Positions 21,481-64,000 of a DNA stretch of 64,000 bases are shown here, piece by piece. The notes beneath the pieces were generated by a model. That model ran no database searches. It was not told the origin of the DNA and worked only from the letters and a program-made list of their open reading frames with translations. Made by a program: the position numbers and the translations under genes. The first letter of the stretch is position 1. The number at the start of each line of letters is the position of its first letter. The stretch comes from Phycisphaerae bacterium (GTDB lineage: Bacteria > Planctomycetota > Phycisphaerae > Tepidisphaerales > Tepidisphaeraceae): contig JAICIO010000012.1 of the NCBI GenBank assembly GCA_025924315.1, positions 1 to 64,000 of the forward strand. Direction: 5' to 3'.

Positions 21481-21518
21481 TACGTGCCCCTCTTGATCCG
21501 CGCGCCATATGTCATCTT

Positions 21519-21544
21519 GTAGGGTGCGCTGAAGCGCACCCTAC
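21519..21544. repeat. Intergenic palindrome, family B, compact copy
   Basis: GTAGGGTGCGCT and AGCGCACCCTAC are perfect 12-nt arms around a 2-nt loop. The same core occurs at 1-26 and 26276-26351. The copy lies between two convergent genes, so a bidirectional terminator role is possible. Confidence 0.85.
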
Positions 21545-26271: not shown

Positions 26272-26275
26272 GTTC

Positions 26276-26351
26276 GTAGGGTGCGCTTCAGCGCACCGGT
26301 TATTCATCGCGCGCGGGGAACGAATAACCGGTGCGCTGAAGCGCACCCTAC
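26276..26351. repeat. Intergenic inverted repeat, family B, full copy
   Basis: Perfect 30-nt arms (26276-26305, 26322-26351; GTAGGGTGCGC outer end) enclose a 16-nt loop. Each arm also contains the smaller GGTGCGCT/AGCGCACC palindrome. It lies 4 nt past one stop and 13 nt past the other in a convergent pair. Confidence 0.9.
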
Positions 26352-26364
26352 GCATGCAATAGGG

Positions 26365-44984: not shown

Positions 44985-45855
44985 ACGCCGCCCGCTCTCC
45001 GTGACCATTCGCTACATTGTGCTGATTGCACTTGGGGTGGTTTTCGCGTTTCCATTCATCTGGATGGTCGGTACCTCGCTCACCGCGCCCAGCGAAATCC
45101 TGGCGAAGGATCGGCCCGTGATTCCGGCGCATCCGCAGTGGGAGAATTACAAGAAGGCGTGGACGGCGATCCCCGTCAATACGGATCTGTTCGGCCGGCC
45201 GGCGCAGGATTTTCCTGCGTTTGCGATTTTTGCGCGAAATACTGTCACCGTCGCGGTCCTTTGCATGATCGGCCAGACGCTCACCGCCGCGATGGTGGCT
45301 TACGCGTTTGCGCGATTGCGTTTTCCCTTTCGCGAGCCGCTCTTCCTGCTGGTGCTCAGCACGATGATGCTTCCGCCGCAGGTCACGATGATCCCGACCT
45401 TCATCATGTGGGCGATTCCGGGCTGGATCGACAGCCTCAAGCCGCTGATTATCCCGTCCTTCTTCGGTGGCGGGGCGTTCTTTATCTTCCTCTTGCGGCA
45501 GTTTTTCCTCACGATCCCAAAAGAGCTGGAGGAGGCCGCCACGATCGACGGATGCGGGCCATTTCGCATCTTCTGGAACGTGATCGTTCCCCTGAGCAAG
45601 CCGGCGCTTGCGACCGTGGCGCTCTTCAGCTTTATTGGCAGCTGGAACGATTTTCTCGGCCCGCTGATCTACACACAGAGCATCGAAAAGAAGACACTGG
45701 CGGTCGGATTGAACGCATTTAAGACGCTCCTCGGAACGCAACCGCACCTGCTGATGGCGGCGAGCGTGGCGATGCTCGTGCCGATTCTGGTGATTTTCTT
45801 TTTTGCGCAGAAGTATTTCGTGCAGAGCGTCGTGACGACGGGTGTGAAAGGATGA
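44977..45855 (+). CDS. ABC sugar transporter permease (MalG/UgpE type)
   Basis: The 292-residue protein has six hydrophobic segments, an N-terminal helix with FAFPFIWMVGTSLTAPSEI typical of the family, and the EAA loop EELEEAATIDGCGPFRIFWNVIVPLSKPAL. It pairs with the upstream permease. No ABC ATPase gene follows: the next gene is a hydrolase, so the ATPase must be encoded elsewhere, as known for MsmK/UgpC-type shared ATPases. A tandem repeat region begins at its stop codon. Confidence 0.88.
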   Translation: MDRRRPLSVTIRYIVLIALGVVFAFPFIWMVGTSLTAPSEILAKDRPVIPAHPQWENYKKAWTAIPVNTDLFGRPAQDFPAFAIFARNTVTVAVLCMIGQTLTAAMVAYAFARLRFPFREPLFLLVLSTMMLPPQVTMIPTFIMWAIPGWIDSLKPLIIPSFFGGGAFFIFLLRQFFLTIPKELEEAATIDGCGPFRIFWNVIVPLSKPALATVALFSFIGSWNDFLGPLIYTQSIEKKTLAVGLNAFKTLLGTQPHLLMAASVAMLVPILVIFFFAQKYFVQSVVTTGVKG

Positions 45856-45994
45856 GAAGCCAGGAGCCAGAAGCCAGAAGCCAGTAGAAAAGACAAAAGC
45901 AGCGTCCCGTCTTTGCCTTTCTTCTGGCTTCTGGCTACTGGCTACTGGCTACTGGCTACTGGCTACTGGCTACTGGCTACTGGCTACTGGCTAC
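45856..45994 (+). repeat. Nine tandem copies of TGGCTAC with an opposing copy upstream
   Basis: Nine perfect copies of the 7-mer TGGCTAC occupy 45932-45994. Just upstream, 45856-45887 carries the reverse-strand relative (AGAAGCCAGAAGCCAGTAG), so the two blocks can pair (AGCCAGAAGCCAG with CTGGCTTCTGGCT at ~45924-45936). The tract ends against GAGGA, the ribosome-binding site of the gene at 46007. Confidence 0.9.
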
Positions 45995-46006
45995 TGAGGA
46001 TTTCCT

Positions 46007-50029: not shown

Positions 50030-51736
50030 ATGAACGCTCAAACTGCCTGGCCGCTTGGTGTCTGCATCTTTCCCGAAGTCGATCTCAACAAGGCTCGCTC
50101 GGTCAATTACCCCAAATACTTGGGCGAAATCATTCACCACGCCGGCGTGTGTCACACGCCGGTGAAGTTCGATGAGATTGAATCGAAGCTGAGCGAGGTG
50201 CGAATCCTGCTCACGATCGGCGAGCGCCCGTTTCCCGACGGCGTGAAGACGAAGCTGAAGACTTGGCTTGAGGCCGGCGGACAGTGGATCAGCATCGCGG
50301 GGGTGTGCGGGATGGAAGACACCATCGGCGTGTCGCTCCCCCCGGCATATCAGGGCTTTGGCGCTGGCCTGCGAACACTCGGCGAAGGTTATCTCGACAT
50401 CAAAGATAAATCGCACCCGACCGTCGGTCACATCTCGCGGCCGCTGCATTTCTTCAGCGGGATTTCTCTCAAGACAAACGGCGCGAAGATCATCGCGACG
50501 GCGCAAGATGCGCACGGGCGCGCCACGGACACGCCCGCGATCGTCGAACGCGCGGTCGGCAAGGGAAAGATCACGCTCATCGCGATCGATCTCACGGGAA
50601 CGGTCGTTTACATCCAGCAGGGCCACGGCATCACGCGCGATGGTGTGCCGGCGCCGGACGGAACTGCGCCGATCACCGACGCGGTCCTGAAAACCGGTGA
50701 CGGTGGGGTGCTCGACTGGATCTTCGACCGCGAGCCGGTGCCGGGTGTTGATGGGCTGCAATGTTTTCTCAATCCGATCGCGGATCAGTGGCGCGAAGTG
50801 CTGCTGCGAGCGATCTTCCAGGCGGCGGTTGAGACGAAGACCGAACTGCCGCTGCTGTGGCTTTATCCGCGGAATTTGCCGGCCGTCGGAACGATGTCGC
50901 ACGACACCGATCAAAACGTCCCCGAGTTCGGCCGCAAGCTCCTCGAAACCGTGAACAAGGCCGGCATCAAGACGACGTGGTGCACGATTCTTCCCGGTTA
51001 TGCGAAAGCGTTCATGGAAGAGCTGAAGGCCGATGGACAGGAGCTGGCGACGCATTACGATTCGATGACCGAAGGCCTGCCGTGGTGCAAAGAGCAGGTC
51101 GATCGGCAGTTCAACGAGCTGAAAGAACTCTTCGGCGAGCAGCCGGTTACGAACAAGAACCATTACCTCCGCTGGCAGGGCGACTGCGAGTTCTTCGAGT
51201 GGTGCGAAGAGCACGGCATCGAGATGGATCAGTCGAAGGGCGCGAGCAAGACCGGCGAGGCGGGCTACAATTTTGGCACGTGCCATCCGTATTTCCCGAT
51301 CACGTTCGAGAACCGCATGCTGAACGTGCTCGAACTGTGCACGCCGACGCAGGACCTCGGCGGGGTGTTCGCGCCGCATGCGCTGTTCGAGCCGCTGCTG
51401 AAGACGGTAGTGAAAAATCACGGTGTGCTACACCTGCTCTATCACCCGCATCACATCGAAAAACCCGGCGTGATCGATTCGATCCTCGACGCCGCCAGAC
51501 GCGGAAAAGAAAGTGGCATGGAATGGTGGACCGGCCGGCAGATTAATACGTGGGAACGCGCGCGGCGCAGGGCGAAATGGACGAATTCCGGAACAAAGAT
51601 CAAAGCGAGCGCCGCGCTGAAAGACGCGACAATCCTCCGCCTTTCGCCAGGCGGGAAGGGCGACACGAAGCGCTGGGGCTTCACCTTCACCGCGGCGATC
51701 ATGCAGATCAATGAGAACCAAGAAATCGCGATTTGA
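50030..51736 (+). CDS. Polysaccharide-deacetylase-like protein with N-terminal amidotransferase-like domain
   Basis: The 568-residue protein has no signal peptide. Residues ~1-245 resemble the beta-rich, glutaminase-like fold found in trehalose-utilisation-type proteins (GQWISIAGVCGM, AVGKGKITLIAIDLTGTV). Residues ~270-510 contain a NodB-like core: the metal motif TMSHDTDQNVPEFGRKLLE, AGIKTTWCTILPGY, QELATHYDS and LHLLYHPHHIEKPG, where an Asp and two His lie as in polysaccharide deacetylases. It may remove acyl groups from uronic or amino sugars. The heparinase-like gene begins 26 nt before its stop. The deacetylase fold is fairly secure, the activity less so. Confidence 0.68.
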   Translation: MNAQTAWPLGVCIFPEVDLNKARSVNYPKYLGEIIHHAGVCHTPVKFDEIESKLSEVRILLTIGERPFPDGVKTKLKTWLEAGGQWISIAGVCGMEDTIGVSLPPAYQGFGAGLRTLGEGYLDIKDKSHPTVGHISRPLHFFSGISLKTNGAKIIATAQDAHGRATDTPAIVERAVGKGKITLIAIDLTGTVVYIQQGHGITRDGVPAPDGTAPITDAVLKTGDGGVLDWIFDREPVPGVDGLQCFLNPIADQWREVLLRAIFQAAVETKTELPLLWLYPRNLPAVGTMSHDTDQNVPEFGRKLLETVNKAGIKTTWCTILPGYAKAFMEELKADGQELATHYDSMTEGLPWCKEQVDRQFNELKELFGEQPVTNKNHYLRWQGDCEFFEWCEEHGIEMDQSKGASKTGEAGYNFGTCHPYFPITFENRMLNVLELCTPTQDLGGVFAPHALFEPLLKTVVKNHGVLHLLYHPHHIEKPGVIDSILDAARRGKESGMEWWTGRQINTWERARRRAKWTNSGTKIKASAALKDATILRLSPGGKGDTKRWGFTFTAAIMQINENQEIAI

Positions 51737-54700
51737 AGAAAAAGATGTGTCGCGAAGGCGCGAAGAAGCGCGAAGGTTCGCGAAGGAAAGATTTAATTGC
51801 TTTTCTTCGCGAACCTTCGCGTTCCTTTGCGTCTTCGCGATATCTATTTTGTTCAGCGCAACGGCTCACGCGGATGACGTGCTGATCGTTCGCCAGCCGA
51901 AATATCCGCCGAAGACCCAGCGGATGTTGCTCACCGATGCGCAGATTCAGCAGGCGCGCGAGAACGTCAAAAAATATCCCGCCGCAAAGAAACTGGCGGA
52001 TCAAATCATTAAGCAAGCCGACGAATGGGCGGCGTGGGATGACGACAAGCTCATCGCCTTGCTGCCGGATGCGCGCACGCCGCGTGCATTTGCGGTCTCG
52101 GCGTCCGGTTGTCCGATCTGCGGGAAGAAGATTCTTGAAAAAGGCGGAGATTACGCGTGGATCGTCGATCCGCACAATCCGCTGCATATTACGTGTCCGG
52201 TCGATCACACAACGTTTCCGAACAAGGACTATCCCGACGATGGCTGGGGCTGGAAGGACCCGAAGACCGGCGAAAAGTTCTGGTTCGTCGCGTATGCGAA
52301 TCACTGGTTGATTCAAGGCAAACTCGTGCCGGGCCTCGCCGCGATGGCGCAGGCGTACATTCTCACCGGCGATAAAAAATACGCGCACAAGTCCGCGGTC
52401 ATCATTCACCGCATCGCGCAGATTTACCCGGCGATGGATTATGTGAAGCAGTCGCGTTACGGCGAGATGATGCGCGCCCGTGGCGAGGACTATCCCGGCA
52501 AGATCGTCAACCACATCTGGGAATGCGCCCTCGCGGGCAGCATCGCGACGTCATACGACTACATTTTCGACGCGATCGATTCCGACTCCGAGCTGCAGAA
52601 AGAGACCGGCAAGTCCGGCGCGCAGCTTCGCACGTTTATCGACGCGAATTTTCTCGAAGACGCGATTGAAGCGATCTACGACGGAAAAATTCGCGGGAAC
52701 TTCGGGATGCATCAGCGCGCGATGGTGGAGATCGGCCTGACGCGACAGTTCGGCGAGCAGAAGAAATGGTTCAGCGATCTGATGGACAAGAGCACATGGA
52801 GCCCGCAGATGCTCGGCCTGCGCTACGCCCTCTACAACGAGGTGTATCGCGATGGTTTTCCCAGTGAAACTTCGCCGGGCTACAACTCGATCTGGGTGAG
52901 TTCGCTCGCCGATTATGGCGATCTGCTCGCCAAGGCGGGGCAGGATGTGTTCGCGCTCTCGCGCACGCGGCGAATGTTCGATAGTGCGATCGATCAGGTG
53001 TGCGCGCGATGCAAGACGCCGTCGCTCGGCGACGCAGGCGACGTCTACGGCGACATCATCGGCCGTGGAATCGGCACGTATCAAGTCGCATATCGGCATT
53101 ACAACGATCCGCGCTACGCGACATTCCTCGCCAGCGCCGGCGCGGATGGCGACGCTGGCTTCACGACGTTTCAATCGCTCTTCTACCCGCCGATTGAAGC
53201 GCAAACGAAGCAGTTGCAACCACAACCCAGCCGCGTTTTCGACGGCTACGGCATGGCGATTCTCAACAACAAAGCCGACGACACGGCGATGTCCCTCTAT
53301 TACGGCTACAAAGCCGGGCACGGCCATTTCGATCGCCTCGGGTTTGAGCTGTTCGCAAACGGCCAATCGATGATGCCGGATCTCGGGTATCCCGACGCGA
53401 TGAACGATTTCGTGCCGGGAATTTACACGTGGTCGAAGAACACGATCGCGCACAACACGGTGGTCGTCGACGCGCATGAGCAACCGCAAAACGTTCACGG
53501 CACGGTCGAGCTGTTTGCGGATGGCCCCTTCGCGCGCGTGATGGACATCTCCGCCGACGGAACTTACCCGCAGTGCAGCAAGTATCGCCGCGCGGTGATC
53601 ATGGTCGATGCCGATCCGCAACATAGCTACTTCGTCGATATTTTCACCGTCGCCGGCGGCAAGGAGCACGATTATTCACTGCATGGGCCGCCCGGTAAAT
53701 TCGAAATGATCGGCGGTGAGTGGACCGATCCCGCCAAAGGCACGCTCGCGGGTGAAGATGTTCCGCTAGGCAGGATCTACGATGACGAAAAGCTTGAAAA
53801 GAACGGCGCGAAGCTCGGCTACGGCAGTTACACGGGCTCCGGATTTCAGCATCTTTTCAATGTCCAGAAGCTGAAGTCGCCGAGCGATTGGATCGCACAG
53901 TACACGCACGCGAAGGACAAGAAGGCCAAGCTCCGCATCCGGGTGCTCGATGCCCCGGATCAACAGATCATACTCGCAGACGCGCACGTCTCGCCCGCGA
54001 AGCATCCCGAGCTGATCAAGTATCTGATTGCGCGGCGCACGGGCGAAAACATCGAGAGCCGGTTCGTGTCGGTGTTGGAACCGTATCGCGATGAGCCATT
54101 CATCGACCACATCGAACGTCACGACTCGACGATTCGCATTTATCGCGCGGCGGGGACTTATGATTCCGTGAGCTACGACTGCGATCAACACGAGTTTTCG
54201 GTGAAGACAGTTGATGCATCGTCGCACGTGCTGCGCCAGTGGCATGTCGTGATGTCGAAACCGATCGGCCACGTCACATCGATTGATGCGCAAAAGAATC
54301 AGTTGCGCGTGCTGCTTGATGAGAACGCGAAGGTCGATGCGGATTCCTTCGTCGGCCGAGTCGCGCACTTCGAGAATGATCTTCGTCGCACCGTCCATCC
54401 AATCGCCGATGCCAGGCGTGACGGAAACGAGATCGTGCTCACAACGCGCGACGATCTCATCGTCGGGCGCGCGAACATCACGAAGGTCAATGGCCAGGCG
54501 CTCGAAACGGATACCGCGCTGCCGTTGCCGATCTATCGCGGGGCGACAATCGCGAGCGATTCATACCAACCGCTCGCGGTTGTTGACGACATTCCCGGTG
54601 GCGTCGTAAGGGCGGAGAAGACGATAAAGACGGTCCAGCCTGTCATTTCCGTGAAACCGGGTGAAAAAGTATGGTTGCTCGACGTGGGTCTCAATGATCG

Positions 54701-54743
54701 CGTGGAGTTACCGGTCACCACTTCCTCTTCCGCGCCAAAGTGA
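51711..54743 (+). CDS. Secreted heparinase II/III-like polysaccharide lyase
   Basis: The 1010-residue protein has the heparinase II/III layout: an alpha-toroid of ~500 residues (NHIWECALAGSIATSYDYIFDAI; NEVYRDGFPSETSPGYNSIW), then beta-sandwich domains starting with GHGHFDRLGFELFANGQSMMPDLGY, the conserved His-rich segment of the family. CPICGKKI and CPVDH upstream may be a zinc site. It should cleave a uronate-containing polysaccharide outside the cytoplasm. Its first ~45 codons are read from an inverted repeat (51750-51840) which supplies an Arg-rich n-region and the hydrophobic core TFAFLCVFAIS before the cleavage site AHA. ATG 51711 overlaps the upstream gene by 26 nt; GTG 51747 is an alternative. 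Confidence 0.8.
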   Translation: MRTKKSRFEEKDVSRRREEARRFAKERFNCFSSRTFAFLCVFAISILFSATAHADDVLIVRQPKYPPKTQRMLLTDAQIQQARENVKKYPAAKKLADQIIKQADEWAAWDDDKLIALLPDARTPRAFAVSASGCPICGKKILEKGGDYAWIVDPHNPLHITCPVDHTTFPNKDYPDDGWGWKDPKTGEKFWFVAYANHWLIQGKLVPGLAAMAQAYILTGDKKYAHKSAVIIHRIAQIYPAMDYVKQSRYGEMMRARGEDYPGKIVNHIWECALAGSIATSYDYIFDAIDSDSELQKETGKSGAQLRTFIDANFLEDAIEAIYDGKIRGNFGMHQRAMVEIGLTRQFGEQKKWFSDLMDKSTWSPQMLGLRYALYNEVYRDGFPSETSPGYNSIWVSSLADYGDLLAKAGQDVFALSRTRRMFDSAIDQVCARCKTPSLGDAGDVYGDIIGRGIGTYQVAYRHYNDPRYATFLASAGADGDAGFTTFQSLFYPPIEAQTKQLQPQPSRVFDGYGMAILNNKADDTAMSLYYGYKAGHGHFDRLGFELFANGQSMMPDLGYPDAMNDFVPGIYTWSKNTIAHNTVVVDAHEQPQNVHGTVELFADGPFARVMDISADGTYPQCSKYRRAVIMVDADPQHSYFVDIFTVAGGKEHDYSLHGPPGKFEMIGGEWTDPAKGTLAGEDVPLGRIYDDEKLEKNGAKLGYGSYTGSGFQHLFNVQKLKSPSDWIAQYTHAKDKKAKLRIRVLDAPDQQIILADAHVSPAKHPELIKYLIARRTGENIESRFVSVLEPYRDEPFIDHIERHDSTIRIYRAAGTYDSVSYDCDQHEFSVKTVDASSHVLRQWHVVMSKPIGHVTSIDAQKNQLRVLLDENAKVDADSFVGRVAHFENDLRRTVHPIADARRDGNEIVLTTRDDLIVGRANITKVNGQALETDTALPLPIYRGATIASDSYQPLAVVDDIPGGVVRAEKTIKTVQPVISVKPGEKVWLLDVGLNDRVELPVTTSSSAPK
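51750..51840. repeat. Inverted repeat, family G, translated in frame
   Basis: Arms 51750-51790 and 51800-51840 are complementary at 36 of 41 positions, with GCGAAGGTTCGCGAAG inside. The 9-nt loop is AT-rich. The whole element lies inside the N-terminal coding part of the heparinase-like gene: the left arm codes for an Arg-rich stretch, the right arm for SSRTFAFLCVFA. Confidence 0.88.
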
Positions 54744-54781
54744 TTTTCCCAACACACATCGGTCTGGCCGCGATCGCTCGT

Positions 54782-54801
54782 ATTTGAAAATGTTTTCAAA
54801 T
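54782..54801. promoter_or_regulatory. Perfect palindrome, candidate regulator site
   Basis: ATTTGAAAA-TG-TTTTCAAAT is a perfect 9-bp inverted repeat with a 2-nt spacer in otherwise GC-rich surroundings. It lies 3 nt before the candidate -35 box of the following PEP-CTERM gene, a position typical of activators. No copy was noticed elsewhere in the window. Confidence 0.5.
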
Positions 54802-54804
54802 GTC

Positions 54805-54834
54805 TTGCGGCCTTGCCGAGCGGTTGAGTATAAA
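54805..54834 (+). promoter_or_regulatory. Candidate promoter of the third PEP-CTERM gene
   Basis: TTGCGG (54805-54810) and TATAAA (54829-54834) are spaced by 18 nt. Transcription would begin ~35 nt before ATG 54879. Confidence 0.4.
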
Positions 54835-54878
54835 TCAGACGCATTCACATCTGTTTGTTTCGAAGAGGAGAAACTGCG

Positions 54879-56150
54879 ATGACCGGATTCAATGCACGTC
54901 GCCGCGCAATTCGCGCGGTCGTTTCGGTCGCGGCTGCGACCGCGGCCGCGATGGTTGCTCAATCGACACACGCTGCGCCGTTCAGCGGGGGCGTGATCGT
55001 TGCGCGCATGGGCGGGACCGATACATTCGGCGGCGCGGCAAGCGCACCGGCGGCCACGGGCACACAGATCTTTCTCGATGAATTCTCGCTCGATGGGACC
55101 GGTTCAACGCCCATTCAAACGATCGCGCTGCCGACGACAGACGGCACCGGTGGGCAGAAAGGAATCGTCGATGCCGGGAGCTCGAACAACGCCGGGTACG
55201 TGAACCGAACGGGTGACGGCGGATCGGTCGTGATCAGCGGATACGACGTCGGCGTCGGAAATGCCGTTGGTGGAGTCGCAACAACGAACCTTCGTATCTT
55301 CGGGCGGGTCGACGCTTCAGGCGCCGTCGACACGTCCACCGGATATTCGCAGGACGGCTCGCCGAACAACAACGCATCCCTCCGCAGCGCCTCGGCGAGC
55401 GGAAACAATTATTACGCGGGCACAGCGAATAGTGCGGCGACGACGCGCTATATCAATACACCGGGGGCGATTGACTCTGCGACGGACGGCGTCGGCGGCG
55501 GGCAGGTGCGTACGATCGGTATCTTCGGCGGACGCCTCTTTACCACCATCACCACCACGTTCTCGTCGGTGAAGGACACTGCAACGGGCGGGTTGCCGGT
55601 TGGTCCTGCCTCGCAGAACACGACCAGCACTTTCACGATTGCCAGCAGCAACAACGAACAGTTCGCGATGGCCGATCTCGATCCGAACGTCAACTTCGAC
55701 GGGACCGGACTCGACACTTTGTATATGTCCGACCTCGGAGCGGTTGCCGGGACGGTCAATCCGGCGGGACCTGCTGAGTCCGGCGGTGGGCTACAGAAAT
55801 ATACCTGGAATGGCACGAGTTGGGTGCTTCAGTACACCTTGAATCAGGGCCTTTCCACCGCGGCTACGGACCGCACTTCCGGCGGGATTGAGGGCGTCGC
55901 TTTCGTTGGCGTCGATGACAGTGGCAATCCAATCCTCTTCGCGACCACTGTATCGACGGCCGCGGTCGGCAATGCATTGATGCGAATCGTGGACAGCGGA
56001 GCGGCTTCGTCGAGCTTCACGCTGGTGGCCAATTCTCCGACCAACACGATGTTCCGAGGCGTCGCCGCTCCATTGCCCGAACCGACCGGTTGTGGGTTGC
56101 TCGGCTTAGGCGCTTTCGGTTTATTGCGCCGCCGGCGCCGGGCGCGCTAA
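54879..56150 (+). CDS. Secreted PEP-CTERM protein
   Basis: The 423-residue protein has a signal peptide (RRRAIRAVVSVAAATAAAMVAQSTHA), a Thr/Ser/Gly/Asn-rich beta body with GGVIVARMGGTDTFGG and QFAMADLDPNVNFDGTGLDTLYMSDL segments, and a C-terminal tail LPEPTGCGLLGLGAFGLLRRRRRAR. AAGAGGAG 9 nt before ATG 54879 fixes the start, although the frame is open to 54855. The body may be a beta-propeller. It is the third PEP-CTERM protein in the window. It is transcribed separately from its neighbours, judging by its own promoter-like region. Confidence 0.82.
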   Translation: MTGFNARRRAIRAVVSVAAATAAAMVAQSTHAAPFSGGVIVARMGGTDTFGGAASAPAATGTQIFLDEFSLDGTGSTPIQTIALPTTDGTGGQKGIVDAGSSNNAGYVNRTGDGGSVVISGYDVGVGNAVGGVATTNLRIFGRVDASGAVDTSTGYSQDGSPNNNASLRSASASGNNYYAGTANSAATTRYINTPGAIDSATDGVGGGQVRTIGIFGGRLFTTITTTFSSVKDTATGGLPVGPASQNTTSTFTIASSNNEQFAMADLDPNVNFDGTGLDTLYMSDLGAVAGTVNPAGPAESGGGLQKYTWNGTSWVLQYTLNQGLSTAATDRTSGGIEGVAFVGVDDSGNPILFATTVSTAAVGNALMRIVDSGAASSSFTLVANSPTNTMFRGVAAPLPEPTGCGLLGLGAFGLLRRRRRAR

Positions 56151-56309
56151 ACCGCGAAATTCGTGCAAAAAACAGGTCAGCGATGTTGGTCAAACGCCTC
56201 GTCGGCGTTACGCTTCATCATTCGCCGTTTTACGATACACTCTTAGCTTCGGTGTGCCGCTCGTCCATCACTCGAGCGCCAAACGTTCACTATCGAACAA
56301 GGATCCATC

Positions 56310-57578
56310 ATGACCACCACTGCCGCTCCACAACAGGAAACGACCTTCACGCTTCGCCCGCGACCCAAGCTCGGACTCGGCTCCGCGATCATTGGACGCG
56401 AGGAAGAAGCACTCGTGCTCGACGTGATTCGTCGCAAGGAGCCGTTCCGGTATTACGGCCACAACCCCGACGCGCCGCCGCCCATGGCCGCGACGCTCGA
56501 AAAGGAATTCGCCGCCAAGATCGGCATGAAGTACGCCCTGTGCGTGACGAGCGGCACCGCGGCGCTGGAAGTCGCGCTCGGCGCGCTCGGCATCGGTCCC
56601 GGTGACGAAGTGATTGTCCCCGCCTGGAGCTGGATCTCCTGTTACACCGCGATCGTGCGCGTGGGCGCGCTTCCGGTCCTCGCGGAGATCAACGACACCA
56701 TGTGCCTCGCGCCCGGCGAGATCACGCGACTGAAAACGCCGCGCACCAAGGCCGCGCTTGTCATTCATTACCAGGGCGTCTCCGCGGAGATGGATGAGCT
56801 GCTCGCTGAGGCAAAACAGGCCGGCATTCACCTCGTCGAAGACTGCTGCGAAAGCATGAACGCGACCTACAAGGGCAAGCAGACCGGCAGCATGGGACCG
56901 ATCAACTGCTTCAGCTACCAGAACAATAAGTTCATGACGAGCGGCGAGGGCGGGGCGATTGTCACCAATGATCCGAAGCTGTACGAGCGGGCGGTTCGCT
57001 TCCACGACATCGGCCAGATGCGCGCGTATCACGCGAACATCGTAAAACCAACCGAAGCGGCGTTCCCGGGCGATCAGTTCCGCATCACGGAGCTGCAGGC
57101 GGCCATGGCGCTGGCTCAGTTGCGCAAGACGGACTACATCAAGGCGCACTGCCGCAAGCTGTCGGCGCATATTCTTTCGGGCATTCAGGATCTCAAAGAT
57201 CTTAAGCTCCGCCGAATTCCGGATCCGACCGGCGATACCGGCATCGAGATCTACATGTCGCTTCCGACGAATCCACTGGCGATCGAGTTCCGAAATCGCC
57301 TCAATGCGCTGAACGTCAACTGCAACAAGACGACCGGAACGTACATGCAGTACGAGCGCGACTATGTGAAGAGCGGCCAAACTCACGCGCCCGGCGCCAA
57401 TCCGTATCCCAAGGGCGGAACCTGGCCGGCGAAAGGCTACCGCAAGGAAGATTTCCCGAAGACGGAAGAAATGATCCCGAAGCTCATCGCGCTGCCGCTC
57501 GGCATGCTCTACACCGAAGAAGACGCCGACTACATTGCATCCGCCGTAAGACACGTGCACCGCGACTTGCTCGGATGA
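56310..57578 (+). CDS. DegT/DnrJ/EryC1/StrS-family aminotransferase
   Basis: The 422-residue PLP enzyme has the family pattern: CVTSGTAALEVALGALGIGPGDEVIVPAWSW, LVEDCCESMNATYKGKQTGSMG and the PLP lysine K207 in SYQNNKFMTSGEGGAIVTN. GEGG after the lysine resembles scyllo-inositol and amino-sugar aminotransferases. AAGGAT precedes ATG 56310. It would move an amino group between glutamine/glutamate and a keto-sugar or keto-inositol. A second family member follows after a repeat. In this degradative setting the reverse, deaminating direction is possible. Confidence 0.88.
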   Translation: MTTTAAPQQETTFTLRPRPKLGLGSAIIGREEEALVLDVIRRKEPFRYYGHNPDAPPPMAATLEKEFAAKIGMKYALCVTSGTAALEVALGALGIGPGDEVIVPAWSWISCYTAIVRVGALPVLAEINDTMCLAPGEITRLKTPRTKAALVIHYQGVSAEMDELLAEAKQAGIHLVEDCCESMNATYKGKQTGSMGPINCFSYQNNKFMTSGEGGAIVTNDPKLYERAVRFHDIGQMRAYHANIVKPTEAAFPGDQFRITELQAAMALAQLRKTDYIKAHCRKLSAHILSGIQDLKDLKLRRIPDPTGDTGIEIYMSLPTNPLAIEFRNRLNALNVNCNKTTGTYMQYERDYVKSGQTHAPGANPYPKGGTWPAKGYRKEDFPKTEEMIPKLIALPLGMLYTEEDADYIASAVRHVHRDLLG

Positions 57579-57592
57579 TTTCGATTTTCATC

Positions 57593-57723
57593 CCCTCTCC
57601 CTGAAAGGGAGAGGGTTAGGGTGAGGTGGGCGCGGTAGTTCGAGCGGTACCTTTTCGCGAATCGACACGAGTCAACTCTCACGCTCGACCCTCACCTCCA
57701 CCCTCTCCCTTTCAGGGAGAGGG
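57593..57723. repeat. Pair of opposed palindromes, family E
   Basis: CCCTCTCCCTGAAAGGGAGA at 57593 and its inverted counterpart at 57701-57723 are each nearly self-complementary 23-mers, and the flanking GGTGAGG/CCTCACC also pair. The right end (AGGGAGAGGGGGAAAG) lies at ribosome-binding distance from ATG 57738 and probably provides its Shine-Dalgarno. Confidence 0.85.
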
Positions 57724-57737
57724 GGAAAGATTTGCAA

Positions 57738-58988
57738 ATGACGATCTCCACCGAAGATCTCCCCGCCTTCGCGGGTGGAAAGCCCGCGAAGACGACGCCC
57801 TTCGCCAAAGAGAAACGCTACGGCGACGCGGAGCTTCAGCAGCTGAAAGAAGCGCTCGACCAGGGCACGCTCTTTTACGCGCAAGGCAAGAAGGTCAAAA
57901 CGCTCGAAGAGCAGTTCGCCAAGCACCACGGCGCCAAGCACGCCATCGCCTGCACCAGTGGGACCGCCGCGATCCATAGCGCGATGATGGCCGTCGGGAT
58001 CTCGCCCGGCGATGAGGTCATCGTTCCGCCGATCACCGACATGGGCTCGATCGTCCCTGTTTTATTCCAGGGTGCGATCCCCGTCTTCGCGGATCTCGAT
58101 CCGAAAAGTTACGTGATGACCGCGCAGACAATCGAGAAATGCATCACGCCGAAAACGCGTGCGGTGCTCGCGGTGCATTTGTGGGGCAACGCGTGTGATC
58201 TCGGCGCGATCAAAAAACTGTGCGACGATCGCAAGCTCACGCTGCTCGAAGATTGTGCCCAGGCGTTCGGCTGCAAGTACGACGGCAAATGCGTGGGCAA
58301 CTTCGGCGCCGTCGGCTGCTACAGCTACAACGAATTCAAGCACATCTCGACCGGCGACGGCGGGATGACCATCACCAACGACGACGATCTCGCGAAGAAA
58401 TTGCGCCTCGCGACAGACAAGTGTTACGACCGCTCCCCGAACGCGAAGATGCGCCAGGCGACGTTCCTCGCCGCCAATTACCGCATGACCGAGTTGCAAG
58501 GCGCCGTCGGCATCGCGCAGCTGGCGAAACTCGATTCGATCGTCGAGCGACGCCAAAAGTGGTGCGCAAAACTCACCGAGCAGATCACCGGCCTGCCCGG
58601 CATCACGCTGCCAAAGGTGACCGACAAGTGCGACCCGTCGTGGTGGTTCTATATGGTGCGCGTCGAGCCGGAAGTGCTCGGCGCAACGGCCGACGAATTC
58701 GTACAGGCAATGCACAAAGAAGGCGTGCCGATGGGCGCGCACTACATCGGCGAGCCGATCTACGCGTATCCGCTGTTCCAGCATCACAGCGCGTTCGATC
58801 ACGCGGAGCATCCATTCAACGCGCGCGTCTACAAGAAAGCCGATTGCCCCGAGGCCGAGAAGATCCTGCAGACCTGCTGCATGCTGTCGATCAACGAGGC
58901 GTACACGGACGACGATCTCGAGGGCACCGTGCGCGCCTTCAATAAAGTCGTGAACTATCTCCACCAGAAACGCGGGCTGAAGGGATGA
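57738..58988 (+). CDS. DegT/DnrJ/EryC1/StrS-family aminotransferase, second copy
   Basis: The 416-residue protein has AIACTSGTAAIHSAMMAVGISPGDEVIVPP, LLEDCAQAFGCKYDGKCVG and PLP lysine K201 in SYNEFKHISTGDGGMTITN. It is clearly different from the 56310 protein (for example, it has GDGG in place of GEGG), so the pair likely acts on different intermediates or forms a heteromeric step. TTG 57732 is a competing start. Its stop lies in an ATGATG overlap with the next gene. Confidence 0.88.
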   Translation: MTISTEDLPAFAGGKPAKTTPFAKEKRYGDAELQQLKEALDQGTLFYAQGKKVKTLEEQFAKHHGAKHAIACTSGTAAIHSAMMAVGISPGDEVIVPPITDMGSIVPVLFQGAIPVFADLDPKSYVMTAQTIEKCITPKTRAVLAVHLWGNACDLGAIKKLCDDRKLTLLEDCAQAFGCKYDGKCVGNFGAVGCYSYNEFKHISTGDGGMTITNDDDLAKKLRLATDKCYDRSPNAKMRQATFLAANYRMTELQGAVGIAQLAKLDSIVERRQKWCAKLTEQITGLPGITLPKVTDKCDPSWWFYMVRVEPEVLGATADEFVQAMHKEGVPMGAHYIGEPIYAYPLFQHHSAFDHAEHPFNARVYKKADCPEAEKILQTCCMLSINEAYTDDDLEGTVRAFNKVVNYLHQKRGLKG

Positions 58989-60832
58989 TGGTACGCATCG
59001 CGCATTGTCATCCTGAGCGCAGCGAAGGATCTCGGGACCGGACGCGTCGTCCGATATCGAGATCCTTCGCTGCGCTCAGGATGACAGTAGTGCTGCTGGC
59101 AGTCCTGGTGGCGGGGGCGCTTCGCGCCGACGAGTTGAGGTTCAAACAAGCCTTCCTCCCGCACCTCGTCCGCGGGATGAGTGACATTCTTAAGAGCTTC
59201 AACCCCGATACCGGCCACTTCGGCGAAGGCGTCTGGATCGTGACCGATCAAAACGTCGTCTTCACCCTCGCCGCCGCCTGGTCGTACAAGAGCGACGACA
59301 ATCCCTACTATCACGACGCAAAAGTATTAAATGCAATCATCGCCGGCGGGGATGCACTGATCGCGGCTCAAGATCAAAACGGCATGTGGGAGTTCCGCAA
59401 GAAGGACAACTCCACCTGGGGTCAGATTTACATGCCGTGGACGTACTCGCGATGGATCCGCGCGTACGGCATCATTCGCGATGCGATGCCGGCTGAGAAA
59501 CGCGCGGCGTGGGAGAAGGCGATCACGAGAGGTGTGGAAGGAATGATCCGCACCGAGCTGGTGAAGGACAAAATCGAAAACATTCCGACGCACGACTCGA
59601 TGGCCGTTTACCACTTCGGCCAATTGATGAACCGCGACGACTACAAGTCCGCCGCGACGGCGTATCTCGACAAGGTTTTCGCGGCCCAGAGTCCCGACGG
59701 TTTCTGGTCGGAGAATTTCGGCCCGGTGGTGAACTACAACTTGGTGTATGTCGATGCGATCGGCGTGTATTATGCGATGTCGCACGATCCGAAGGCGAAG
59801 GAAGCGCTACGGCGCGCCGCGATCTATCACTCGAACTTTACCTATCCCGATGGCTCGGAAGTGGCGACCGTCGACGAGCGAAATCCTTATCACAAGTCGA
59901 TCGTGATGCCGAATGTCGGATTCACCTTCTCGCCCGAGGGCCGCGGGTTTATCGAGCATGAGCTCAAGCTGCTGGAAGGCAAGCCCATCGGCGCGGAAAT
60001 GGCTGCGTCGTATCTGCTCTATGGTGAAAAAGGCGAGGCAACCCCGCCGCCGAGCGAACAGCCGCACTATCAGCACATGATCGGCGATGCCACGAACGGC
60101 GCGCTGATCCATCGCGACGGCCAATGGTTCGTCTGCATGAGCAGCTACCATCCGCCGCCCACATTCAAGCTCGTCAACCTCGCGGTGGTGCTGAAGGGCG
60201 ATCCGTTCACGGTACTGCCGTTTACCAGCGTGCCGAGCACGCGGTGGATTCAGGATCGCCAGAATTTCGTCAGCCTCTTCAACGACAAGACCGGCCTGAT
60301 CCTCGGCGGCGGAAACACGAAAATGCAGCCGCTGTGGAGCACGTTCACCGTCGGCGATGTAAGCAAGCTTCATCACACGCCCGGCGATCAGAATCCGAAT
60401 TTCTTCCCGAAGCCCGGGCTGCTGCACATGCCGACCGATGCGCACCTGGACGCCGACGATTTGCAGCTCGATCTCACGTACTACGAAACGAAATGCCATG
60501 TGCGCGTCGATACGAGTTCGCCCAACCAGGCGACGCTCACGTACTGGATCGACGACCTCCCTCCGCAGGGTGCCAGCGCGCACGTGCCGCTGCTCGTTGA
60601 TCCAAAGACGATCGTCGCCAACATTGCACGCGCAAACGACGCCGATCACTTAACGCACCGGGGATGGCGCATCAGCGTCCCGCGCGGTGCATCGCTCGAA
60701 TATCCGGTCCCGCCGCACAATCCTTACACAAAAGACGGGCACATCGATTCGCCGGACGAGGCGCGTTGCGTGATGACCCTGCCGTTTACGCCGGCCGTTC
60801 GCAAATACCAGATCACCGTGGAAGTGCCGTGA
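58985..60832 (+). CDS. Secreted alpha-toroid/beta-sandwich lyase-like protein
   Basis: The protein reads like a polysaccharide lyase of the alpha-toroid plus beta-sandwich type: an N-terminal helical half (MSDILKSFNPDTGHFGEGVW, NGMWEFRKKDNSTWGQIYMPWTYSRWIRAYG, THDSMAVYHFGQLM) and a C-terminal beta half from ~380. The exact family was not recognised. ATG 58985 overlaps the previous stop as ATGA, the junction type used repeatedly here. The next ~32 codons run through a perfect inverted repeat and give an Arg-rich n-region, then VVLLAVLVAGALRA as the signal-peptide core. ATG 59081 inside the repeat would give a 583-residue form lacking positive charge at its start. It is followed by a GTGA overlap with the SDR gene. 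Confidence 0.72.
   Translation: MMVRIAHCHPERSEGSRDRTRRPISRSFAALRMTVVLLAVLVAGALRADELRFKQAFLPHLVRGMSDILKSFNPDTGHFGEGVWIVTDQNVVFTLAAAWSYKSDDNPYYHDAKVLNAIIAGGDALIAAQDQNGMWEFRKKDNSTWGQIYMPWTYSRWIRAYGIIRDAMPAEKRAAWEKAITRGVEGMIRTELVKDKIENIPTHDSMAVYHFGQLMNRDDYKSAATAYLDKVFAAQSPDGFWSENFGPVVNYNLVYVDAIGVYYAMSHDPKAKEALRRAAIYHSNFTYPDGSEVATVDERNPYHKSIVMPNVGFTFSPEGRGFIEHELKLLEGKPIGAEMAASYLLYGEKGEATPPPSEQPHYQHMIGDATNGALIHRDGQWFVCMSSYHPPPTFKLVNLAVVLKGDPFTVLPFTSVPSTRWIQDRQNFVSLFNDKTGLILGGGNTKMQPLWSTFTVGDVSKLHHTPGDQNPNFFPKPGLLHMPTDAHLDADDLQLDLTYYETKCHVRVDTSSPNQATLTYWIDDLPPQGASAHVPLLVDPKTIVANIARANDADHLTHRGWRISVPRGASLEYPVPPHNPYTKDGHIDSPDEARCVMTLPFTPAVRKYQITVEVP
59006..59086. repeat. Perfect inverted repeat, family D, translated in frame
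   Basis: Arms 59006-59033 and 59059-59086 are complementary at 28 of 28 positions (TGTCATCCTGAGCGCAGCGA start). In the reading frame of the following gene they code for CHPERSEGSR and RSFAALRMT, and the right arm contains the alternative ATG at 59081. Confidence 0.92.
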
Positions 60833-61860
60833 GCCAAAAACAAATCAAGGACGTTGAACAACTCGAAGAAATGCTCAGCCGCCCGAGTGACGCCGCGATT
60901 GCCGCGATGTCGCGCTTGCAAGGCGATGTGATCGTGCTCGGCGTCGCGGGGAAGATGGGGCCGACGCTGGCGCGGATGATCGTTCGCGCGAGTGAAGCCG
61001 CCAACGTCAAACGCAAAGTCATCGGCGTCGCGCGATTCAGCAATCCGACCGAACAGAGCAAGCTCGACTTCGCGGGCGTGCAGACGATCAAGGCAGATCT
61101 GCTCGATCAAGCGCAGCTCGACAAGCTGCCGGATGCGCCCAACGTCGTCTACATGGCGGGAATGAAGTTCGGCTCGACTGGGAACGAAGCGCTCACGTGG
61201 GCGATGAACAGTTATCTGCCCGGAATGGTTTCGAAAAAATATCAGAAGAGCAAAATCGTCGCGTTCTCGACGGGCAATGTGTACGGGCTTTCGCCGATCG
61301 CGCGGGGCGGATCGCTCGAAGCGGATGCGCTCAATCCGATCGGCGATTACGCGATGAGCTGCCTTGGTCGCGAGCGGATCTTCGAACATTTCAGCCGAAC
61401 GCTGCACATTCCGATGGCGATGATTCGCCTGAATTACGCGACGGAAATGCGCTACGGCGTGCTGGTCGATCTCGCCCAGCGCGTGTGGAAGAACGAAGAG
61501 ATCGACGTGTCGATGGGCACGATGAACGCGATCTGGCAGGCCGACGCGAACGCGATGACGATCGCGGCGTTCGATCATGTGTCGTCGCCGCCGTTCCTCT
61601 TGAACGTCGCGGGGCCGGAGCTTTTGAGCATGCGCGCAGCGGCCCTCGCATTCGGTCGGCTGATGAAAAAAGACGTGCGAATCGTCGGCGAAGAGTCGAG
61701 CGATTCGCTCATCAGCAACGGCCAGTTGGGTCACAAGCTGTACGGCTATCCGCGCGTCCCCGCCGGGCAGATGATTGACTGGATCGCCGACTGGGTCATG
61801 CGCGGCGGGGAGAACATCAACAAACCCACCCATTTCGAAGCGCGCGACGGAAAATATTGA
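60829..61860 (+). CDS. NAD-dependent epimerase/dehydratase-like (extended SDR) protein lacking the catalytic lysine
   Basis: The 343-residue protein has the Rossmann segment VIVLGVAGKMGPTLARMIVRAS at ~33-54, a serine motif FSTGNVYGL, and a Tyr in GDYAMSCLGRERIFEHF. At the lysine position of Y-x-x-x-K stands Cys, so the usual catalytic pair is incomplete. PGGSL-like RGGSLEAD and MRLNYATEMRYGVLVDLA-type segments still support the family. GTG 60829 forms a GTGA overlap with the lyase-like gene, pointing to coupled translation and a shared pathway. It may be a modified oxidoreductase or a non-catalytic relative. Confidence 0.78.
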   Translation: MSQKQIKDVEQLEEMLSRPSDAAIAAMSRLQGDVIVLGVAGKMGPTLARMIVRASEAANVKRKVIGVARFSNPTEQSKLDFAGVQTIKADLLDQAQLDKLPDAPNVVYMAGMKFGSTGNEALTWAMNSYLPGMVSKKYQKSKIVAFSTGNVYGLSPIARGGSLEADALNPIGDYAMSCLGRERIFEHFSRTLHIPMAMIRLNYATEMRYGVLVDLAQRVWKNEEIDVSMGTMNAIWQADANAMTIAAFDHVSSPPFLLNVAGPELLSMRAAALAFGRLMKKDVRIVGEESSDSLISNGQLGHKLYGYPRVPAGQMIDWIADWVMRGGENINKPTHFEARDGKY

Positions 61861-61945
61861 ACCGCAGATACACGCGGATGAACGCAGATGAAGAAATTGT
61901 CTATGTTCTTGTCCTATCTGCATGTATCTGCGTTCATCTGCGGTT
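61860..61945. repeat. Imperfect inverted repeat, family F, overlapping a gene start
   Basis: Outer arms AACCGCAGAT (61860-61869) and ATCTGCGGTT (61936-61945) pair perfectly; inner parts (GAACGCAGAT with ATCTGCGTTC) are related. The ATG at 61888 of the next gene lies inside the left arm, and the right arm codes for signal-peptide residues. Confidence 0.8.
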
Positions 61946-64000
61946 TCATTTCGTTTTCTGTGCGCGCCGCGGATGACGATCTGAAACTCCCGCCGGGGTT
62001 TCGTGGGGAGATGCTCTACTCAGTGCCGCGCGAGAAGCAGGGCTCGTGGGTTTCGATGACGCACGATCCGAAAGGGCGGCTTATCGCGTCCGATCAATTC
62101 GGTCCGCTGTATCGCATTACGCCCGGCGAGAGCGCCGCCACCACCAAAGTTGAAAAGCTCAACCTCGCGCTCGGTCACGCGCACGGTTTGTCCTACGCCA
62201 AGAGCAGCTTGTTTGCGGTGGTGAACGGCGCGCTGCCGGATGGTCGCCCGGCGGGGCTGTATCGCGCGATCTCGCACGACGACGGCGACACGTTCGACGC
62301 GCCGCAGCTTCTGCTCGCATTCAAAGACCGCAACGGCAACGTCGCCGCGGGTGAGCACGGCCCCCATGGCGTTCGCATCGCGCCCGATGGCACGCTCTAC
62401 ATCATCGCGGGAAATTTCACGCAGATTCCCGAGCATATCCTGCCCGATTCGCCCGCGAAGAACTGGAACGAGGAGCTGCTGCTTCCGCGGATGACGGATC
62501 ACCTCGATGCGACGACGATGGCGCCCGGCGGATGGGTCGCGACTTCCCGCGACGACGGCAAAACGTGGCGGCTGCTCTGCACGGGACTCCGCAATTCGTA
62601 CGACCTCGACTTCACCGACGACGGCGAGCCGATCACCTTCGACAGCGACATGGAATGGGACGTCGGCGCGCCGTGGTATCGCCCCACACGGATCACGCAC
62701 CTCGTAAGCGGAGGCGAGTATGGCTGGCGAAACGGCTCGGCGAAGTGGCGAGCGGATTATCCCGATACGCTTCCGCCGGTGCTGAACGTCGGCCTCGCAT
62801 CGCCAACAGGCGTGACCTTCGGACGTGGGCTGAAATTTCCCGCGAAATATCAGCAGGCGTTCTTCATGGCCGACTGGGCGTACGGCCGGATCTTCATGGC
62901 CACGCTCGATGCGCATCCGCGCGTCGAAGTTTTCGCATCCAAGCGGCCGTTTCCGGTGACGAGCCTCGTGGTCAACACAGATGGCGCGCTTTACACGATC
63001 ACTGGCGGCCGCGGCGTGCAATCGGAGCTCTGGCGATTCTCCTACGTTGGATCCGCGTCCACATCGCCCACGTTGCCGCTAATTGGAAGTTTCCCGCTGC
63101 TCACCGAGTTGGAGAGCTTTCACGGACACGTCGATCCAAAGGCGGTCGACGTCGCGTGGCCGTATTTGTCCCATGCGGATGCAACCATCCGGTTCGCTGC
63201 GCGCGTCGCAATCGAGTGGCAGCCTGTGGCGACGTGGCAGGAGCGCGCGCTGACAGAGACGAACTCGCAGCGTGCCGCGCTCGCAATGATCGGGTTGTGT
63301 CGATGCGCGGACAAATCGCTTCAGCCGCGAATTCTCAAAAGGCTGAATCAATTATTCGACGCGCGATCGCAGAACACGGACTTGCTGACCATCCTCCGCG
63401 GATATGAGCTGTGCTTCATTCGCATGGGCGCGCCATCGACTGAGCTCGCGGCGGAAGTGGAAAAACGTCTCGACGCGCTCTATCCAAACTCGCCCTATCC
63501 GCTTGAGGTCTGCCAGCTGCTCGCGTATCTGCACGACCCGAAGCTCGTCACCAAAACGATTCCGCTGCTCGCGACCGCGACCGCAGAGGATCAGCTTGGG
63601 TACGCGACGACGCTGCGGCTGGTGAAGGACGGCTGGTCGATCGACGATCGCCGCGCGTTCTTCCACTGGCTCAACCAGGCCGAGACGCATCTCGTCGGCG
63701 CGTTCAATCTACCGCTGTTTCTTCAGCAAATTCGTAACGACGCGATCGCGACGCTCTCGCCCGAAGAGAAAGCGCAGCTCGGTTCGCTGATCGACGCGCC
63801 GGTGAAGGCCGCGACCGTGCAAAAGCCGCGGCGGTTTGTGCGGCATTGGACGTATGAGGACTTGCTGCCTCTCGTCGAAGCGCGACAGCATGGCCGATCG
63901 TTCGAGAACGGAAAATCCGCGTTCGAATCGCTCTCGTGTTTGCAGTGTCATCGATTTGGCGAGGCGGGTGGGGATGTCGGTCCACTGCTTACGGTGGTCG
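61888..64000 (+). CDS. PVC-type haem-binding CxxCH protein, truncated at window end
   Basis: At least 704 codons run off the right edge. The N-terminus has a signal peptide (MKKLSMFLSYLHVSAFICGF) with cleavage near RAADDD. Residues ~30-390 form a beta-propeller of the planctomycete membrane-bound dehydrogenase type (LPPGFRGEMLYSVP, HGPHGVRIAPDGTLYIIAGN, GLRNSYDLDFTDDGE, SGGEYGWRNG). A helical region follows, and the haem motif C684-x-x-C687-H688 lies in LSCLQCHRFGEAGGDVGPLL. Such proteins oxidise or bind carbohydrates or alcohols and pass electrons outward. The start ATG lies within repeat F. It is the last gene of the 56-64 kb run. Confidence 0.85.
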   Translation, partial: MKKLSMFLSYLHVSAFICGFISFSVRAADDDLKLPPGFRGEMLYSVPREKQGSWVSMTHDPKGRLIASDQFGPLYRITPGESAATTKVEKLNLALGHAHGLSYAKSSLFAVVNGALPDGRPAGLYRAISHDDGDTFDAPQLLLAFKDRNGNVAAGEHGPHGVRIAPDGTLYIIAGNFTQIPEHILPDSPAKNWNEELLLPRMTDHLDATTMAPGGWVATSRDDGKTWRLLCTGLRNSYDLDFTDDGEPITFDSDMEWDVGAPWYRPTRITHLVSGGEYGWRNGSAKWRADYPDTLPPVLNVGLASPTGVTFGRGLKFPAKYQQAFFMADWAYGRIFMATLDAHPRVEVFASKRPFPVTSLVVNTDGALYTITGGRGVQSELWRFSYVGSASTSPTLPLIGSFPLLTELESFHGHVDPKAVDVAWPYLSHADATIRFAARVAIEWQPVATWQERALTETNSQRAALAMIGLCRCADKSLQPRILKRLNQLFDARSQNTDLLTILRGYELCFIRMGAPSTELAAEVEKRLDALYPNSPYPLEVCQLLAYLHDPKLVTKTIPLLATATAEDQLGYATTLRLVKDGWSIDDRRAFFHWLNQAETHLVGAFNLPLFLQQIRNDAIATLSPEEKAQLGSLIDAPVKAATVQKPRRFVRHWTYEDLLPLVEARQHGRSFENGKSAFESLSCLQCHRFGEAGGDVGPLLTVV

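Follow-up and report, generated by a model that had tools for sequence, protein, structure and literature searches.

The window analysed here, a 64,000-nt stretch of a Phycisphaerae contig, carries palindromes at the 5′ ends of three plus-strand genes. The first of these genes encodes a heparinase II/III-like, predicted exported protein (51711..54743; PF07940, E 2e-14) and holds palindrome G within the part coding for the N-terminus; the gene upstream of it (50030..51736, plus strand) ends with a stop codon that lies 26 nt into the heparinase gene, immediately 5′ of G. Palindrome D lies in the gene for a lyase-like, predicted exported protein (58985..60832), directly downstream of a plus-strand DegT/DnrJ aminotransferase gene (57732..58988; PF01041, E 7e-98), and the N-terminus of the lyase-like protein reads MMVRIAH, then D, then VVLLAVLVAGALRADE; a Pfam search assigned this protein to no family. 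Palindrome F starts at the stop codon of a plus-strand NAD-dependent epimerase gene (60829..61860) and reaches into a gene (61888..64000) that extends past the end of the window and whose product has the signal peptide MKKLSMFLSYLHVSAFICGFISFSVRA. A Pfam search with this product was without match as well, and "PVC-type haem protein" is the name it was given in a sequence-only reading of the window. Elsewhere in the window, between two genes, GGCTACT heptamers form an array at positions 45846-46004 and are accompanied by an inverted partner.

That reading had described three inverted repeats in frame with these genes, and all three are present, both in the sequence and in the predicted folds. 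On the plus strand, the arms of G (51740-51790/51800-51850) are 51 nt long and 82% complementary, those of D (59006-59044/59048-59086) 39 nt and 92%, and those of F (61860-61889/61916-61945) 30 nt and 80%. Predicted RNA fold energies of G, D and F are -74.8, -71.6 and -38.3 kcal/mol (z = -12.5, -14.4 and -6.3 against shuffled sequence), far stronger than in the shuffled controls, and the palindromes are thus not a product of chance.

The claim that each repeat runs in frame through the gene start needs to be qualified. All three are in frame, but the left arm of F does no more than end in the ATG at 61888, so that the translated part of F is only the loop and the right arm (MKKLSMFLSYLHVSAFICG). 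In G, translated as ...DVSRRREEARRFAKERFNCFSSRTFAFLCVFAI, the right arm supplies part of the hydrophobic core (51740..51850), as had been proposed. The only in-frame starts above this core are ATG 51711 and an alternative GTG 51747 at the edge of the repeat, and no in-frame start below G yields a signal peptide; the whole palindrome must therefore be translated if the protein is exported. For D, a role of an arm in coding for the core was not borne out. The 79 nt of the window copy together with a T/A flank make 27 codons (HPERSEGSRDRTRRPISRSFAALRMT), in which the arm provides an n-region or a start. The right arm terminates in an in-frame ATG at 59081 (MTVVLLAVLVAGALRADE), and the hairpin could thus be untranslated, lying upstream of the true start; the role of D in the window may perhaps be just the donation of this new ATG.

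All three palindromes belong to families that are dispersed through the 6.57-Mb genome. There are about 150 copies of D (allowing three mismatches at most, its arm matches the genome 148 times forward and 149 times in reverse, against 0 times for a reversed D pattern used as control), about 60 of F (63 and 62 arm matches) and at least 40 of G (106 candidate places, 69 scored matches). We examined about 100 stretches around copies, calling genes by codon usage after training on the window. The distinct copies that could be placed in context were 102 of D, 52 of F and 41 of G, and about 100 of the roughly 150 D copies are thus covered. All three families are in the main ordinary intergenic repeats (76/102, 32/52 and 38/41 intergenic copies for D, F and G). 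D is mostly 79 nt long (81 nt with the T/A flank), has MITE-like terminal inverted repeats (GTCATCC/GGATGAC) at its ends and is stop-free throughout in one frame of three. The D superfamily is found across many phyla, and D is absent from most relatives examined. Copies of D also terminate genes, where GTCATCCTGA gives the neighbour its stop codon (L140, L040, L048 and L071), and the relative G025 has a longer D-type element, represented by about 67 arms that lie about 165 nt apart.

A genome-wide count against random placement revealed an excess of D at signal peptides, all of which are here predicted, by an in-house rule. At 13 of the 62 junctions of D with gene 5′ ends, the open frame (HPERSEGS...RSFAALRMT) runs straight into a hydrophobic core, against a random expectation of 2.85%, obtained by simulating insertion near 377 control gene starts (binomial p 1.8e-8). 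Examples are MT/VIALVFVTTLIARGDE (L155), MT/ICAVLFVMGTVARAQ (L006), MT/LLTCLVVGKVRAAPA (L007), MT/ILTVLLAGVVRAES (L017), MT/AFAGFLSVLMGC (L050, a lipoprotein-type signal) and MT/VVLLAVLVAGALRADE (the lyase-like gene of the window), with neither a native start nor a charged n-region between D and the core. Because a 79-nt copy is open in one phase only, the shared frame of these cases is explained. The core abuts the repeat in 13/58 cases in the open phase and in 7/127 in the other two (p 0.0014), where the automatic phase-0 set includes L008 (edge outside the gene frame) and L127 (an internal insertion) and leaves out the single-arm copies L141 and L026, and the other-phase count includes one true case, the 80-nt copy L042. 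Genes in the other two phases have a full signal peptide of their own some distance away, or none. Since many of them thus carry a complete signal peptide downstream, signal-peptide frequency as such differs less between phases (p = 0.07), and it is the direct contact of core and repeat that is informative. Only one of the D copies examined lies well inside a gene (L127 1117-1192, in frame in a 568-aa protein), and it follows a WLARR stretch and precedes a hydrophobic, probably transmembrane, segment, a context that resembles a signal peptide.

These junctions might be a matter of chance and gene calling, with intergenic repeats that happen to precede genes and open frames that were extended into them. 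Most copies are indeed intergenic, and extended starts are easily called through an element that is open in one frame. Nevertheless, we regard this explanation as highly improbable: the core directly adjoins the repeat, the junctions exceed those of random insertion, homologs show that an n-region belongs at the position of the repeat, and starts below the repeats, as the data already indicate, give no complete signal peptide.

A more serious alternative is that D only donates a start codon, its terminal ATG replacing a lost one, while the palindrome forms a 5′ untranslated hairpin with a possible part in controlling expression. An in-frame ATG, that of ..GGATGAC, does lie two codons 5′ of the core in 12-13 D cases; in all of these, however, the frame is also open to an upstream start, and MT plus core would lack a positive n-region residue. 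Moreover, L042 (D), L084 (G) and, most likely, L232 (the sister element D′, described below) need translation through the palindrome to have a signal peptide; none of the three has an equivalent inner ATG, and in F the core itself is coded by the right arm. We consider start donation alone quite possible, if somewhat short of an even chance.

The sequences on either side of D point instead to insertion into signal peptides that already existed. When the D flanks are joined, 10/11 two-armed N-terminal cases give a complete signal peptide whose start is in frame, for example MKRAI/VIALVFVTTLIARGDE, MRKGWPTLA/LLTCLVVGKVRAAPA, MMVRIAH/VVLLAVLVAGALRADE, MLRV/FITLALVTANRAFAA and MRSRKDQMPPR/AFAGFLSVLMGC, whereas the left flanks of the remaining D copies do the same in 29-50%. 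The displaced n-region is usually kept upstream of D, as in MKRAI/D/VIALVFVTTLIARGDE. Among 26 relatives, 11 of the 13 D-hit genes have homologs with an ordinary short signal peptide directly before the same mature sequence. The window's other two genes give a similar picture: the heparinase ortholog in the relative G020 has a 22-aa signal peptide without the repeat (MKSISRIAIILSSLLPLVASAAPA), and homologs of the haem protein have ordinary signal peptides. The proposal that genes were inserted next to repeats is contradicted both by the n-regions displaced 5′ of the repeat and by the ordinary signal peptides of the relatives. At the 82 D junctions searched for target-site duplication, a further feature of MITEs, direct repeats of 2-6 bp are not in excess, and insertion is therefore deduced from the flanks and the relatives rather than from a transposition scar.

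For F and G the pattern is anecdotal. Four F copies supply a hydrophobic core, namely MKKLSMFLSYLHVSAFICGFISFSVRA in the window, where the right arm had been noted before to code for YLHVSAFICG, MKRSFLICVHLCASAVPLICIG/C, MNTDKHRLVKALVLPSVFICVHLWFPLSSARA and MNHLRSSVFICGFLLFCSAIHA; G has one clean case at a signal peptide, the heparinase-like gene. The idea that palindromes are repeatedly co-opted as signal-peptide sequence is thus partly upheld, by the D excess, the four F cases and the one G case, but most copies are intergenic and D does not code for the core. In another genus (G004, L518), a homolog of a D-hit gene has half an F element, LSVFICIHLWF, without the left arm, as its core.

It could be argued from the four F-derived cores, and from the G004 homolog, that such elements were positively selected for better or more diverse export signals or for translation control of exported proteins. 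The insertions are not conserved in most relatives, though, and the same data are explained by tolerance, so that we think positive domestication very unlikely; tolerated insertion is the simpler account.

A 68-nt sister of D, here called D′ (GTCATGCTGAGGTACTCCGAAGCATCT), occurs in about 104 copies in the relative G020, whose ortholog of the window lyase has D′ at the corresponding boundary (MMKASMFKK/RHPEVLRRIWVWVRRCFGLPQHD/TLLVLIALIVTFLPAVARAQ). Between the present genome (G000) and G020, which represent two genera of one family, three D/D′ site pairs have orthologous genes on both sides (gene junctions L138/L329, L001/L232 and L010/L320), two of them at signal peptides. This points to a hot spot or else to insertions of long standing that have followed the repeat family of their own genome. 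Sites conserved through targeting, through ancestral insertion with homogenisation or through regulation could make the overlap with signal peptides secondary, and it is in line with this possibility that signal-peptide genes make up 52% of D-adjacent genes and 29% of controls (p 0.0007). Most copies, however, are not common to both genomes, and the relatives mostly lack D and have unmodified signal peptides in these genes. We therefore hold this explanation to be unlikely, and the enrichment would be due to what selection tolerates, not to insertion aimed at these sites.

The association with signal peptides does not extend to D in general. Among 140 D edges in other phyla, the 33 same-frame open edges included no convincing signal-peptide case (13/58 in the present genome versus 0/33, p 0.003). 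The pattern thus belongs to the present lineage, perhaps because of the copy number there and the many exported proteins (the 29% of control genes above, by the same rule).

Taken together, we find it probable that these elements insert recurrently where the n-region meets the hydrophobic core, and that they are tolerated there because n-regions are permissive. In the Sec pathway, n-regions vary freely provided that they are positively charged, and the boundary is tolerant because positive charge is all that the n-region needs. D, F and G would be short palindromic repeats of a REP/MITE-like, non-autonomous type, dispersed over the genome presumably by transposition and persisting mostly between genes, while selection would remove most coding insertions except where a protein tolerates about 27 extra residues. 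An in-frame insertion of D would leave the ancestral start and n-region upstream and keep the core and cleavage site, and its open frame would bring an arginine-rich stretch and, immediately 5′ of the core, an ATG as a second possible start. The loop and right arm of F may act similarly, reading as a hydrophobic core (SVFICVHLWF, SAFICGF), and G in the window would lengthen the n-region and supply part of the core. The proteins are presumably exported, and the starts they use are predicted ones.

Our data also bear on what might move these elements. D, F and G resemble REP/RAYT and TIR/TIRYT repeats, which are multi-copy palindromes, mostly intergenic, in genomes that include those of PVC bacteria (PMC3733652). 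D, however, starts with GTCA, whereas the REP tag is GTAG or CGTC, and a Y1/RAYT transposase was rejected as the mover of D, since no D or F lies within 1.5 kb of any of the 10 Y1 loci in the genome, which show one loose G-like match (L523). Another palindrome family, GTAGGGTSCGCTTCAGCGSACCGGTTATTC (window 26275-26352, 1-27 and 21518-21544; L520 1317-1345 and 2045-2073), forms 29-nt terminal inverted repeats around the Y1 transposase gene of L520 and probably has a TIRYT-type mover of its own.

The closest precedents are the Rickettsia palindromic elements and a signal peptide in Yersinia. As reviewed in PMC10969869 and PMC2229807, the Rickettsia elements (RPE; Ogata et al. 2000, 2002) are several short palindrome families of about 105-150 bp, found in frame in unrelated protein genes, many for conserved metabolic proteins. 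D, F and G are of the same kind: multi-copy palindromic elements, in frame in otherwise conserved genes and absent from orthologs. The present elements differ in being 68-93 nt long, unrelated in sequence and concentrated at the n/h boundary, and their peptide, if the protein is exported, would go with the cleaved signal peptide. In Yersinia, an RU-2 (YPAL) repeat makes up residues 1-30 of YPO1552, which has a predicted signal peptide at 1-41, a single case that was viewed as a possible new gene (Delihas 2007, PMC2759123). There too a repeat-derived N-terminus lies in a predicted signal peptide, but here the arrangement is recurrent, in predicted exported proteins that have homologs without the repeat. 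Our literature search, mainly of papers open without subscription, found no report of recurrent n/h-boundary insertion, and a search for the translated repeat strings returned nothing relevant; single cases are thus already known, and genome-wide recurrence at signal peptides was not found in the literature searched.

One practical consequence is that HPERSEGS or RSFAALRMT at protein N-termini is repeat-derived, and start calls there need caution. We tentatively suggest, as an idea that may well not hold, that several unrelated families of this lineage share one niche, the n-region being a safe harbour for mobile elements and an ongoing source of export signals. If this is true, open-frame insertion at the n/h boundary would be neutral or useful, and repeats would serve as material for rebuilding export signals. 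It would also give a testable account of which parts of a protein can harmlessly take up mobile DNA.
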